From: Flavobacteriia bacterium
Lineage (GTDB): Bacteria; Bacteroidota; Bacteroidia; Flavobacteriales_D; Crocinitomicaceae
Length of the DNA: 37,542 bases
Reading direction: 5' to 3'
NCBI GenBank assembly: GCA_947464135.1
Contig: CANHVK010000016.1
Location: 1 to 37,542, forward strand
The notes beneath the pieces are model-generated. The model did not search any database, was not told the origin of the DNA, and saw only the letters and a list, made by a program, of their open reading frames with translations. Positions 17,802 to 23,057 of the stretch are shown one piece after another; the first letter of the stretch is position 1, and each line of letters begins with the position of its first letter. The translations under genes were made by a program, and so were the position numbers.

Positions 17802-19730
17802 TTAAATTTTATTAAAGCGTTGAAATAATGGTTTCAACGCTTTTTTTGTTTCTGTTGATAACGATTGTTCATTTTTTAAATAAGTATCTAAGGCAATCGT
17901 TTTAAATACTTGTGAAGGTAACATTTGCTCATAAAGTTGATAATTACTTTCAATATCACCGTAGGTACTTAAAAAATCGATAATAGCAGGGGCTGTTTTT
18001 AAATATCCAAAACGTATACTTTGTTCAAACCAAAGTCTCTGTATCGCTTTATTTGGGTGTTTACTAAAGTGGTAATGATATTCCAAATAATCTAATTTTT
18101 CGGCTTGTATTGTTTTAGGGAGAAGTGATAAAAATACAAACCAATCATCAATCGTATATTTTTTTGTTAGTTTTTTAAATTTTCTAATTTTTGATAATTT
18201 CCGCTGGTAACTAAATAGTTTACAATCTTTATGAATGGTTTTGTATCTTTTTGATTCAAAGTTTAATTCACTTTTTGATACATTAGTTCCGTTTAGAAAT
18301 TTTTTATAATTAAAATCAATATACTCGTTTTGAATTAAAAAATGGTTTATCTCTCTTTCAAAGTCTTCCTTATTATGTAGTGTTGGTTTTTGGATAAAGG
18401 CTTTTAAAAACGAATTGAATCCAACGTTACCAAGTTTTTTATCTAATTGAAGAAAGAACATAAATCCTTTTAATTGTAAATTCATTCTTTCTGAATAACT
18501 ATAATCTTTTAGAAAATCACAAGGTTTAGAATAAATGTTTGTCAGTCTTACTAATGGAACATTGTATTTATTTATATATCGTCTATTTGTTTCTATAAAA
18601 GATTTTATCAGCATGTCGAGATAGTTATTTCCTAGCGTTTCTCCTTTTGATCTCAACGCCAGGTATTTATTCATTCCGATAATTAATTGTCTGTTATCTT
18701 CACATTTAGTACTAAATAGAGGTTTCGGCCAAGTTTGAAATAAGTATTCTTGAATAAAATCTCCTGAATTCATGTAATTTCCTAAACTAACAGGATGAAT
18801 AAATGCAAGATTAGGATAGTCAAATGATTTATATGGGAAATTTCCAGGGAGTATGCAAAAGTTAAATTCTTTCCAAGGATGCTTACCTAATAAGTTTTCG
18901 ACGTGTTTAAGATAGGTATTAAAATGATTGAATTCTTTTAAACTTTTTGTTGAATTAAAATCATCTAAATAATACATTGTTATATTTTTAGATATTGATT
19001 TTTGTTTAAAGTAACCCATAAAAAACCCAATATCATATACATTGATTTTTGAAGGAGATTCATAAAAAAAACGATTGCTATCAAGCTGGTGAAGATTGTG
19101 TTTTGAGCCAAATAAAGGGGTTAGATTCAAATCATTTTGAATTTCAATAGAAAAGTCGATTTTTTGATTACTGACATCTTGAATTGGAATCCAATTTCGA
19201 GTGTATTTTTCACCAGGGATAAGGTAAAGTTTACTATGTTTGAAGTAAGAGCTATCAATATCCCAATGAAGGTTTGTTGGTTTTTCAGTAGTTTGATAGT
19301 AGATGTTGATGAATCGAGTTTTAGGTTTGATTCTAATACTCAAAGGAGCACCTAAGGTACTATCTTCTTTACCAATAATATATTCAGTATTTCGTTCATT
19401 TCCTATCTTTCCTATTGTTACTTTTTGAATTTGTAGACCATTAATATCGAACAAAATTGTATCAGAATAATGACGTTTTAATCGGTATCTTGCAATACCA
19501 TAAATGGATTTTGATTCGAATTTCACATCTAAATCTAAATGAAGATGTTCTATTCCAACTTTGGTAGAATTGGAATAGCTGCTATCGTTTCCAATTTCGA
19601 TATTAGTTATGTCGTTTGATGATACAGATGGAATATTTTCTAAGTCCGAATCGTTACAACCACAAAAGAATAGCCCTAGTAAAAAAGTGCTAGTTAAAAC
19701 TATATTTTTTATGGTTTTTATATTTTTCAT
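17802..19730 (-). CDS. Catalytically dead M1-peptidase-like lipoprotein (leukotriene A4 hydrolase fold)
   Basis: A 642-residue lipoprotein (signal MKNIKTIKNIVLTSTFLLGL, lipobox cysteine at 23 or 25). The body follows the LTA4 hydrolase/aminopeptidase B branch of M1. It has an N-terminal beta domain (HLHLDLDVKFESKSIYGIAR, WIPIQDV near 180), a catalytic-domain region (FPYKSFDYPNLAFIHP, 298-313) and a C-terminal helical-repeat domain (LPKTIQAEKLDYLEYHYHF, IQRLWFEQSIRFGYL). The zinc motif is gone: where the family has HExxHSW-18-E, this protein has EYLFQTW (328-334) and Ile351. GGMENP is replaced by KSFDYP. The proton-donor tyrosine of PYEKGF is Gln419 in LQLKGF. The gene has no stop or frameshift, so this is a maintained pseudoenzyme rather than a pseudogene. 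It may bind peptides or be structural; the function is unknown. Confidence 0.78.
   Translation of the reverse strand: MKNIKTIKNIVLTSTFLLGLFFCGCNDSDLENIPSVSSNDITNIEIGNDSSYSNSTKVGIEHLHLDLDVKFESKSIYGIARYRLKRHYSDTILFDINGLQIQKVTIGKIGNERNTEYIIGKEDSTLGAPLSIRIKPKTRFINIYYQTTEKPTNLHWDIDSSYFKHSKLYLIPGEKYTRNWIPIQDVSNQKIDFSIEIQNDLNLTPLFGSKHNLHQLDSNRFFYESPSKINVYDIGFFMGYFKQKSISKNITMYYLDDFNSTKSLKEFNHFNTYLKHVENLLGKHPWKEFNFCILPGNFPYKSFDYPNLAFIHPVSLGNYMNSGDFIQEYLFQTWPKPLFSTKCEDNRQLIIGMNKYLALRSKGETLGNNYLDMLIKSFIETNRRYINKYNVPLVRLTNIYSKPCDFLKDYSYSERMNLQLKGFMFFLQLDKKLGNVGFNSFLKAFIQKPTLHNKEDFEREINHFLIQNEYIDFNYKKFLNGTNVSKSELNFESKRYKTIHKDCKLFSYQRKLSKIRKFKKLTKKYTIDDWFVFLSLLPKTIQAEKLDYLEYHYHFSKHPNKAIQRLWFEQSIRFGYLKTAPAIIDFLSTYGDIESNYQLYEQMLPSQVFKTIALDTYLKNEQSLSTETKKALKPLFQRFNKI
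17814..17847 (+). terminator. Strong intrinsic terminator of fabI
   Basis: A perfect 12-bp stem, AAAGCGTTGAAA (17814-17825) and TTTCAACGCTTT (17832-17843), with loop TAATGG and a T-run to 17847. The entire hairpin lies inside the last codons of the convergent minus-strand gene (17802-19730). Confidence 0.85.
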
Positions 19731-19791: not shown

Positions 19792-20520
19792 TTAATCTAT
19801 TTTTCTTACAAGGTGTTTTATGACTTCTGAAGCACCATATAGACCGAATAAACCTGGCATATAACTTATTGTACCATAAAAGGAACGTTTAAAGTTTTTA
19901 CCATCTGTCAGTTTTAAAGATTCTTTAATTTGTATTTCTGAAGAGTAAACGGCTTTAACTCGTTTAAAGTTAATTCCTTCGCGTTTCAATCTTTTTTTTA
20001 TGTGATGGCCTAATTTGCAATTGTTAGTATTTTCAAGTTTAGCAACTTGAACTTTTGCTGGATCTAGTTTACCACCTGCACCTAAGTGAGTTATAATTTT
20101 AATTTTTAAACGAAGGCAAGCTTTAATCCATTCTAATTTTGGTGTTACTGAATCAATACAATCCATTACGTAATCTGGCTTGAATTCTGCAAGAATTTCC
20201 CAAACTCTTTCAGGAACTACAAATTCTTCAATTATATTTAAATGAATTTCAGGGTTTATGTCTTTGATTTTTTCCCCAAGGACTACTGCTTTGTTTCGAT
20301 TAATAGTTGAGTCTGTTGCGGTTAATTGTCTGTTTTTGTTTGTTTTATCGAATACATCTCCGTCAATTATTGTCATTGTTCCTATGCCTGATCTTGCAAT
20401 AAATTCACCAGCAAAAGAACCTATACCACCAAGCCCTACGATAAGTACGTGAGCATTTTTAAGTTTTTCAATACTTTCTTCACCTATCAATAAGGCACTT
20501 CTTTCTAACCAATCTCCCAT
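19792..20520 (-). CDS. tcdA: tRNA threonylcarbamoyladenosine dehydratase TcdA
   Basis: A 242-residue ThiF/MoeB/HesA-type adenylating enzyme. It has an N-terminal SALLIGEESIEKLKNAHVLI segment, nucleotide-binding GLGGIG (29-34), IDGDVFDKTNKNRQLTA with the conserved asparagine/arginine, and DCIDSVTPK. The absence of the E1 catalytic-cysteine domain, the length and the segment LDPAKVQVA point to TcdA (CsdL/YgdL). TcdA converts t6A to cyclic t6A at tRNA position 37. Its start overlaps the end of the TatD gene by 16 bases, so the two are probably one operon. Confidence 0.88.
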   Translation of the reverse strand: MGDWLERSALLIGEESIEKLKNAHVLIVGLGGIGSFAGEFIARSGIGTMTIIDGDVFDKTNKNRQLTATDSTINRNKAVVLGEKIKDINPEIHLNIIEEFVVPERVWEILAEFKPDYVMDCIDSVTPKLEWIKACLRLKIKIITHLGAGGKLDPAKVQVAKLENTNNCKLGHHIKKRLKREGINFKRVKAVYSSEIQIKESLKLTDGKNFKRSFYGTISYMPGLFGLYGASEVIKHLVRKID

Positions 20521-21125
20521 TTCTTAAATACGGTTTTAAAATTGTTGTAAATTGTCAATTCCAAATCTAACAAAGAAATCTCTTTTATAGAAGCAACTTT
20601 CTGGTAAACTTCATAGATAGTGTGATATTCATCATTATCTGTTTCTAAAAACAATTTGTTTAATGGTATTGTTTTTAGAGCTTCTTGTAATTTTTCATCA
20701 TATAAAATTGCTGTACCTATACTGATATAAAACTCTTCTTTTAAAAGGTTTTTCAAAAGGTTGGTTTTTCTGAATCCATGTATTATCCAGGGTTGATTCG
20801 GTCTGATTTCGTGGTTTATTTGTATGAGTTCATTGAATGCTTTTACACAATGAATAATGACAGGTATATTTAGTTTTTCAGCATACTTTAGTTGTTTTAT
20901 AAAATTTTTAATTTGTTCATTAATATTTATTTGTATTATTTTATCTAAACCTATTTCACCAATACATATACAATTATTGTTTTTAGTTATTTTTTCATCG
21001 AAAACAAAATTATTTAACTCGAATGGACCAACACCATAACTGAAAGGTGTTTCTAATTCTTCCTTTGAATTAATAATTTCTAATCCAATATTTTTTCTGG
21101 TATGAGTATGTATGTTTATTAACAT
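20505..21125 (-). CDS. Short TatD-family metal-dependent hydrolase
   Basis: A 206-residue TIM-barrel amidohydrolase-like protein. Metal ligands of TatD are all visible: HTH (His6, His8), Glu57 in IGEIGLD, His92 in VIIHC, His116 in WIIHGFRK and Asp163 in LFLETDND. It is about 50 residues shorter than Escherichia coli TatD; the shortening appears to lie in the loops between strands and at the C-terminus. TatD proteins are 3'-5' exonucleases or DNases; activity here is inferred only from family. It overlaps tcdA downstream and is divergent from the POT transporter. Confidence 0.85.
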   Translation of the reverse strand: MLINIHTHTRKNIGLEIINSKEELETPFSYGVGPFELNNFVFDEKITKNNNCICIGEIGLDKIIQININEQIKNFIKQLKYAEKLNIPVIIHCVKAFNELIQINHEIRPNQPWIIHGFRKTNLLKNLLKEEFYISIGTAILYDEKLQEALKTIPLNKLFLETDNDEYHTIYEVYQKVASIKEISLLDLELTIYNNFKTVFKKWEIG

Positions 21126-21200: not shown

Positions 21201-23057
21201 ATGGAACAAACTCAAAAAGGACACCCTAAAGGACTTTATTTATTATTTACCACTGAAATGTGGGAGCGATTTAGTTACTACGGTATGCGTGGTATTTTTA
21301 CTCTTTTCTTAACTGGAGCATTAATGTTTGATAAAAAGACGGCTTCCGGTTTTTATGGGTCATATACCAGTTTAGTGTACCTTACACCAATTATCGGTGG
21401 ATACTTTGCTGATAATTTATGGGGAAATAGAAGGTCAATCATGGTAGGTGGTATAATGATGGCAATTGGCCAATTCTTTATGTTTTTGAGTGGTTCGTTC
21501 TATCAACAACACGATTTGGCGGTTACTTTTATGTTAATCGGTCTAACTTCATTAATTTTCGGAAACGGATTTTTTAAACCTAATATTTCGACATTAGTTG
21601 GTCAGTTGTATTCAGAAACAGACAAACGTAAAGATGCAGCATTCACCATTTTTTATATGGGAATTAATTTAGGTGCTTTTATCGCTCCACTTATTTGTGG
21701 AGGTTTAGGTGAAAGATATGATATCAACGGTAATCCAATCGCTGGAGCTTTTAAATGGGGATTCTTATGTGCTTGTGTTGGTATGATTATCTCGGTTATT
21801 ATGTTCAAGTTAAGAATGAATAAAGTGCTAGTTGGTCCAGATGGAGAACAAATAGGTGTAGTTTCTAATAAATTGAGACTTGCAAAAATGAATGCAGACC
21901 AAGGTGTTGAAATAGAAGAAACTCCAAAATCTAAAAGCAACATTTATATCGGTGTTTTAATCGGTATCTTTTTATTTATCATTCTTAGATTTCAAGTTTT
22001 TATTTCTGCAGATGAGTCTACAGTTGATGTTGTCAATAATTACATCTCTGCGGCTATATTTGCTATTGCTGTTGCCATTCCTTTGATAATAATTCTTGAT
22101 AAATCTTTAACCAAAGTTGAAAAAAGCCAAATCAGTGTGATTTATATTATTGCTTTTTTCGTGATTTTCTTCTGGGCAGCTTTTGAACAAGCTGGAGCTT
22201 CTCTTACCTTCTTTGCTCAAGAACAAACGGATAGAGTATTTTTTGGATGGGCAATGCCTGCCAGTTGGTTTGGAAGTTTTAATGCTGTATTTATTGTTAT
22301 TTTAGCTCCAATCGTTTCTATTTTGTGGACTAAATTAGCTAACAAAGGAAAAGAACCTGCATCTCCATATAAACAAGCTATGGGGCTATTTTTACTTGCT
22401 TTGGGTTATGTATTTATTGCTTATGGTGTGAAAGGAGTTGAACCTGGTATCAAAGTGAGTATTATTTGGTTGACAGGTTTATACCTAATTCATACAGTTG
22501 GTGAATTATTTTTATCTCCAATTGGATTATCTATGGTAAATAAATTAGCTCCTGTACGTTTTGCTTCATTATTGATGGGGGTATGGTTTTTAAGTACAGC
22601 AGCAGCAAATAATTTTGCAGGATTTTTAAGTTCATTCTATCCTGAACCAGTTGTAAAAGCTTCTTATGTTCGTGAATTAGAAAAAGAATATTCTACCAAA
22701 AATCACAAGGCATTATTACAAGTTGAAGATTTAAATGCGGCGAAATTAGCTGATACAACAGTTGTTTTTGATGCGAAAGGAATTGAGCAAAATGTGAAAT
22801 ACGATGCGATTAAGTTCAACAATCTGTTTCCGAAAACTACAAACAAAAAACAATTAGAAGAAAATGCTAAAGTGATTGAAAAAATTAAGATCGAAGCAGC
22901 TAAAAATTCAATCAATATTGAAAAATCATTTCTTGGAATCAAAATTAATGATTTGTACTCATTTTTCATGCTATTTGTTTACTTAGCAGGTGGTGCAGCG
23001 ATTGTGCTATTTTTCTTAAGTAAACCATTATTAAAAATGATGCATGGAGTGAAATAA
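21201..23057 (+). CDS. POT/PTR-family proton-coupled peptide transporter
   Basis: A 618-residue inner-membrane protein of the proton-dependent oligopeptide transporter family. The hallmark E-x-x-ERFSYYGMRG motif is on helix 1 (residues about 19-30), followed by GGYFADNLWGNRRSI, GFFKPNISTLVGQLY and FTIFYMGINLGAF. WAAFEQAGASLTFFA is the helix-7 signature. A hydrophilic segment of roughly 90 residues (about 485-575) precedes the last helix; this insertion is common in Bacteroidota members. It takes up di-/tripeptides with protons. A terminator follows closely. Confidence 0.93.
   Translation: MEQTQKGHPKGLYLLFTTEMWERFSYYGMRGIFTLFLTGALMFDKKTASGFYGSYTSLVYLTPIIGGYFADNLWGNRRSIMVGGIMMAIGQFFMFLSGSFYQQHDLAVTFMLIGLTSLIFGNGFFKPNISTLVGQLYSETDKRKDAAFTIFYMGINLGAFIAPLICGGLGERYDINGNPIAGAFKWGFLCACVGMIISVIMFKLRMNKVLVGPDGEQIGVVSNKLRLAKMNADQGVEIEETPKSKSNIYIGVLIGIFLFIILRFQVFISADESTVDVVNNYISAAIFAIAVAIPLIIILDKSLTKVEKSQISVIYIIAFFVIFFWAAFEQAGASLTFFAQEQTDRVFFGWAMPASWFGSFNAVFIVILAPIVSILWTKLANKGKEPASPYKQAMGLFLLALGYVFIAYGVKGVEPGIKVSIIWLTGLYLIHTVGELFLSPIGLSMVNKLAPVRFASLLMGVWFLSTAAANNFAGFLSSFYPEPVVKASYVRELEKEYSTKNHKALLQVEDLNAAKLADTTVVFDAKGIEQNVKYDAIKFNNLFPKTTNKKQLEENAKVIEKIKIEAAKNSINIEKSFLGIKINDLYSFFMLFVYLAGGAAIVLFFLSKPLLKMMHGVK

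Follow-up and report, generated by a model that had tools for sequence, protein, structure and literature searches.

The window, by which we mean the whole stretch of DNA analysed here (37,542 nucleotides of contig CANHVK010000016.1), comes from a draft genome of the Crocinitomicaceae that is 84% complete and divided into 104 contigs; the habitat of its genus is presumably freshwater, judging from isolate names and the surveys behind them. On the reverse strand the window carries a gene for a lipoprotein related to the M1 aminopeptidases, preceded by genes for ThiF-family and TatD-family proteins (Table 1). The sequence-only reading had described this gene as free of lesions, and its frame indeed runs from an ATG start to the stop codon without interruption. 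POT-family transporter genes stand in tandem beside the locus, both in the window (21201-23057) and at 11481-18277 of L041, and reach as many as four consecutive copies in genome G012.

Table 1. Features of the M1-related locus in the window. Residue numbers on the left of each replacement are those of LTA4H.
Feature	Position	Strand	Basis or remark
Candidate pseudo-M1 lipoprotein gene, 642 aa, LTA4H/ColAP branch	17802..19730	-	Open reading frame, homology, predicted fold
Signal peptide, lipobox FCG-C25; next six residues NDSDLE, three of them acidic	19656..19730	-	
N-terminal beta domain, residues 49-247	18990..19586	-	At present under the strongest constraint
Former catalytic domain, residues 248-480	18291..18989	-	Column comparison with active relatives
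C-terminal helical domain, residues 500-632	17835..18233	-	PF09127 match at 527-631
GGMENP replaced by KSFDYP, residues 301-306	18813..18830	-	Alignment columns
HExxH replaced by E328-Y-L-F-Q332	18735..18749	-	Alignment columns
Third zinc ligand Glu318 replaced by Ile351	18678..18680	-	Alignment columns
Proton donor Tyr383 replaced by Gln419	18474..18476	-	Gln in 10/11 genus members and in G186
Carboxylate-binding Arg563/Lys565 equivalents replaced by Asp592/Glu594	17949..17957	-	phmmer and alignment columns
Cys343, new	18702..18704	-	10/11 genus members, 0/29 active relatives
Cys404, new	18519..18521	-	Same 10 genus members as Cys343, 0/29 active relatives
His312, new	18795..18797	-	10/10 genus members besides G012, 0/29 active relatives; also in G186
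ThiF-family neighbour, upstream, marks the orthologous locus	19792..20520	-	
TatD-family neighbour, same block as ThiF	20505..21125	-	

In phmmer searches, residues 49-618 of the window protein aligned with the aminopeptidase ColAP of Colwellia psychrerythraea (PDB 3cia; 9.5e-38, about 570 residues) and residues 58-450 with human leukotriene A4 hydrolase (LTA4H; about 1e-21). The NCBIfam equivalog model for LTA4H, TIGR02411, aligned with residues 49-629 (1.6e-35), its score of 122.9 bits lying below the curated cut-off of 761.7 bits. A Pfam search returned the C-terminal LTA4H domain (PF09127, 1.5e-9) as the sole match, with none to the Peptidase_M1 domain PF01433, and the protein therefore falls outside the curated profiles for enzymes of the LTA4H branch. 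Two AlphaFold models, one with the 11 genus proteins (pLDDT 77.9) and one with 40 sequences (82.9), have the three-domain M1 fold and match 3cia with a Z of 30.6 over 564 residues; superposed on LTA4H they give a Z of about 30 over about 565 residues. The predicted helices 323-332 and 344-366 hold the former HExxH and Glu318 positions, as expected. In full-length sequence and in predicted fold alike, the window protein thus belongs to the LTA4H/RNPEP branch of the M1 family, as had been recognised from the letters, and on these models the fold has been retained.

All the substitutions that the sequence-only reading had listed proved correct in a comparison of each alignment column with 29 active relatives. 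The zinc ligands His295 and His299 have become Glu328 and Gln332 and the general base Glu296 has become Tyr329, so that, with Ile351 at the third ligand, the HExxH-x18-E zinc site is gone; the GxMEN exopeptidase motif and the catalytic tyrosine are likewise replaced (KSFDYP and Gln419). The loss extends to the Arg563/Lys565 pair and to the equivalent of Gln134, which is Ile171 in the window protein and isoleucine or leucine across the genus; these residues bind the substrate in LTA4H. A HExxH-like site elsewhere in the protein had been named as one observation that would overturn the reading; HExxH was looked for in the rest of the frame and not found, and it is absent from all 11 proteins of the genus. 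The window protein is thus an enzyme homologue without the required catalytic residues, the first mark of a pseudoenzyme. Both zinc histidines and GxMEN are replaced in every one of the 11 gene-bearing genus genomes, while the general-base and third-ligand glutamates are still present in L009 and L010; such a distribution fits a stepwise loss in which the histidine ligands and GxMEN would have gone first.

The gene is present in 11 of the 13 genomes of the genus, including all six good ones, and in 217 of the 240 genomes of the whole family. We did not take its absence from G003 and G005 as gene loss, both genomes being about 75% complete; the G005 contig stops at the ThiF gene adjoining the expected locus. 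A coding pattern for HE(L/M)AHSW(S)G was detected in 205 of the 240 family genomes, none of them from this genus, and HE(L/M)AHSW is kept in about 205 of the 206 gene-bearing family genomes outside the genus versus 0 of 11 inside; the one exception outside is G186. Among well-completed genomes of the order, only G273 has in addition the gene without the motif, and it was not counted because its frame is a 230-aa fragment. Two well-completed family genomes (G062 and G081) gave no match at all, and it seems that elsewhere in the family, as in these, the enzyme has been lost outright.

Each genus genome has one PF09127 match, which leaves no active copy of the LTA4H branch and rules out a paralogue beside a still-active copy. 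Across the order, too, almost every genome with the gene has a single copy; G312 (family f9), with two matches on different contigs, is the only such genome in the order sample. Five further M1 genes, of different branches, occur in the same genome as the window protein and keep HExxH, so that the loss of the motif is no genome-wide artefact. The TatD-ThiF-M1 locus, with POT transporters beyond, is common to the genus and to the active G020, G021, G058 and G073. The genus proteins form one clade in the tree (support 100/100), with long branches within it; the tip leading to G012 has a length of about 4.5, and given this long branch its placement is unsure. The G012 gene itself (L041 8148-10013, G012:C6) is an open frame, so diverged that the new Cys, Trp-Pro and Gln of its relatives are absent. 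Public labels of three metagenome-assembled members of the genus (L080, L082 and L086) read Chryseobacterium gleum, Chitinophaga pinensis or Candidatus Planktophila lacus and look unreliable, given as they are to members of a single genus.

Outside the genus, the M1 site has been lost in one species of g37, another genus, whose frame is complete and open (L128 485-2458, G186:C4). Here AHELAHSW has become ANQLARSW (His to Asn, Glu to Gln, His to Arg), GGMEN has become GGTEN and the tyrosine has become glutamine, with the third-ligand glutamate kept; the Tyr-to-Gln change and a new histidine at 312 are common to G186 and the genus studied here. In an early quick tree G186 branched basally to the active group. 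With more of g37 included, three intact proteins form its sister group (100/99) and it nests among active relatives, for which reason we rejected its membership in the same pseudoenzyme clade. Compared with an intact sister, dN/dS is about 0.09, dS being saturated. Judging from these sequences, G186 is an independent second loss of the M1 site, at an early stage.

The proposed dN/dS comparison within the clade was carried out pairwise on the whole mature protein by the approximate Nei-Gojobori method. Genus pairs gave values of about 0.05-0.16, those for distant pairs being rough since their dS is saturated; for the close, unsaturated pairs among L004, L005 and L007 (dS 0.16-0.26), dN/dS is 0.10-0.12. 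The frame is open in all 11 genus genomes that have the gene, and together with these ratios, within the limits of the method and of the saturated deep pairs, this indicates retention by selection, the second mark of a pseudoenzyme. Recent random decay or an assembly error was rejected as the main explanation, given open frames and purifying selection across 11 separate genomes and the five M1 genes that keep HExxH. Intact homologues at the same locus, which according to the sequence-only reading might betray recent random decay, do exist in other genera, but the pattern within the genus is clade-wide and conserved, and that part of the concern falls away.

The distribution of constraint along the protein has been reversed. 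From active relatives to ten genus proteins, invariant columns fall from 87 to 21 (of 233) in the catalytic domain and rise from 39 to 56 in the N-terminal domain; the two sets differ in size, depth and divergence, and the reversal of the domain ratio is large. Most of the formerly invariant catalytic-domain positions (76 of 87) are unconserved in the genus. Long branches, and a G012 protein devoid of the new conserved residues, indicate that relaxed constraint is part of the genus history. This lends itself to the reading of a slow decay, in which the enzyme became dispensable and the gene, under relaxed constraint and with no present function, is drifting towards loss. We judge this unlikely. 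It would account for the long branches and the extreme divergence of G012, for the reduced constraint on the catalytic domain and for the absence of any match in complete genomes of other genera (G081 and G062), but it is already weakened by the 11 open frames, by dN/dS values that are low in young pairs too, by an N-terminal domain with more invariant columns than in active relatives, and by new invariant residues common to ten diverged species.

These ten proteins (all of the genus except G012) share Pro335, Phe339, Cys343, Cys404, Gln419 and His312, next to Trp334, which is retained from the active enzymes. A second cysteine pair, Cys307 and Cys382, occurs in six genus proteins (L003-L008) and in no active relative. 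Paired gains of cysteines in an extracytoplasmic lipoprotein suggest disulfides, and we propose that Cys343 and Cys404 form one. The LTA4H residues near Thr310 and around 367 presumably line the same substrate pocket, which would make such a link plausible as a lead; the loop of Cys404 (392-407) is of low confidence in the AlphaFold model.

Alternatively, the former cleft might have become a new functional site for ligand binding or new chemistry, involving for example Cys343/Cys404 with Gln419 and His312. We consider this improbable: these four residues are invariant in the ten diverged members and missing from all 29 active relatives, and a second origin of Gln419 and His312 is seen in G186, which was inactivated independently, but the catalytic domain is mostly variable (21 of 233 columns invariant), G012 is without all four, and a structural disulfide is the simpler account of the cysteines. 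Improbable, too, is a scenario of genus-wide conversion without duplication in which the cleft was rebuilt as a ligand or redox site from the cysteine pair, Gln419 and His312, with another lineage of the family independently starting out likewise. That the protein still works as an M1-type peptidase, through another metal site or a motif that has moved, is most improbable, for although a passage in PMC10211241 allows that catalytic residues may have migrated in some pseudoenzymes, and L009 and L010 keep the general-base and third-ligand glutamates, HExxH is absent throughout the 11 proteins and GxMEN, the tyrosine and the substrate-binding Gln, Arg and Lys are lost too.

All 11 genus proteins and all 29 active relatives have the lipobox cysteine (Cys25). 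An export signal of Bacteroidota lipoproteins has been described (PMC5080379), the rule being that at least two acidic residues follow the cysteine (PMC12578637). Of the 11 genus proteins, 10 carry two or more acidic residues among the six next to the lipid cysteine (nine counted by a script and L008, CDDIKES, by eye) versus 17 of 43 others scored, an enrichment (p 0.005) that is only indicative, the sequences being non-independent. By this rule of sequence, Cys25 followed by NDSDLE marks the window protein as probably a surface-exposed lipoprotein. As a possible precedent for a surface lipoprotein resembling a peptidase, those of the Bacteroidota BAM complex were weighed and set aside, as the paper in question mentions no peptidase.

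Taken together, we hold, with a probability of roughly 0.7, that the window protein is non-catalytic and kept by selection for a binding or structural role. The membrane-anchored pseudopeptidase originally envisaged is well supported by the universal lipobox cysteine, the genus-wide catalytic loss, purifying selection and positional orthology. Of the roles suggested for it, the protein may fill that of a scaffold; peptide binding through the old site is unlikely, since GxMEN, the substrate glutamine and the Arg563/Lys565 pair are also lost and the gain in conservation sits in the N-terminal domain. Under the non-catalytic reading, the ancestor would have been a single LTA4H/ColAP-type M1 aminopeptidase lipoprotein of the Crocinitomicaceae, from which the present gene would descend directly, with no spare duplicate. 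The zinc and substrate sites would have been lost in the common ancestor of the genus, with the protein retained in the outer membrane by its lipid anchor, non-catalytic and probably turned outward. Perhaps, and this is tentative, the N-terminal domain is a binding interface: the conserved beta domain would meet a putative envelope partner, the protein most likely acting by binding. The emptied catalytic domain may then act as a folded support and would probably be held by the new Cys343-Cys404 disulfide, which would stand where zinc once ordered the site.

Among known proteins, ColAP resembles the window protein in whole-length homology and predicted fold, but was solved as an aminopeptidase with its zinc motif intact, whereas here ligands, base, GxMEN and tyrosine are all replaced. 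Human LTA4H, a soluble, active, bifunctional enzyme, has a similar fold (Z about 30, from the models) and the same three-domain order; the window protein is instead a lipoprotein and has neither the catalytic nor the carboxylate-binding residues. Closest in context are the active LTA4H-like lipoproteins of other Crocinitomicaceae (G020 and G021), which share locus, lipobox and fold family and, unlike the window protein, have fully intact catalytic motifs. The model of the window protein also matched chain B of the TFIID entry 7edx (Z 19.9), which we take to be TAF2. TAF2 is not known to be catalytic and is alike in using an M1 fold as a non-protease scaffold, but it is eukaryotic and nuclear, with a larger APN-type architecture, and is no orthologue. 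Its fold had been predicted to be aminopeptidase-like (PMC4309443). The yeast M1 protein Tma108, a nascent-chain binder, has been proposed to act without catalysis; it retains almost all of its active-site residues, and its former substrate pocket is proposed to hold the nascent chains (PMC11266112), whereas the window protein no longer has the residues of that pocket.

Pseudopeptidases are an established kind of protein, M1 Tma108 included (PMC11266112). A search of openly available papers turned up no account of an inactive bacterial M1 protein of the LTA4H branch or of an aminopeptidase pseudoenzyme in Flavobacteria. Many well-studied pseudoenzymes are duplicates beside a surviving active twin. 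What is surprising here is the conversion of a single-copy gene in place, throughout a genus, with a parallel case in G186. Together with the early-stage G186, the active positional orthologues of related genera form an ordered series, which allows one to ask by what route an enzyme gives up catalysis and what residues are the first to go. Meanwhile, annotation by homology could misname these genes of freshwater bacteria as aminopeptidases.
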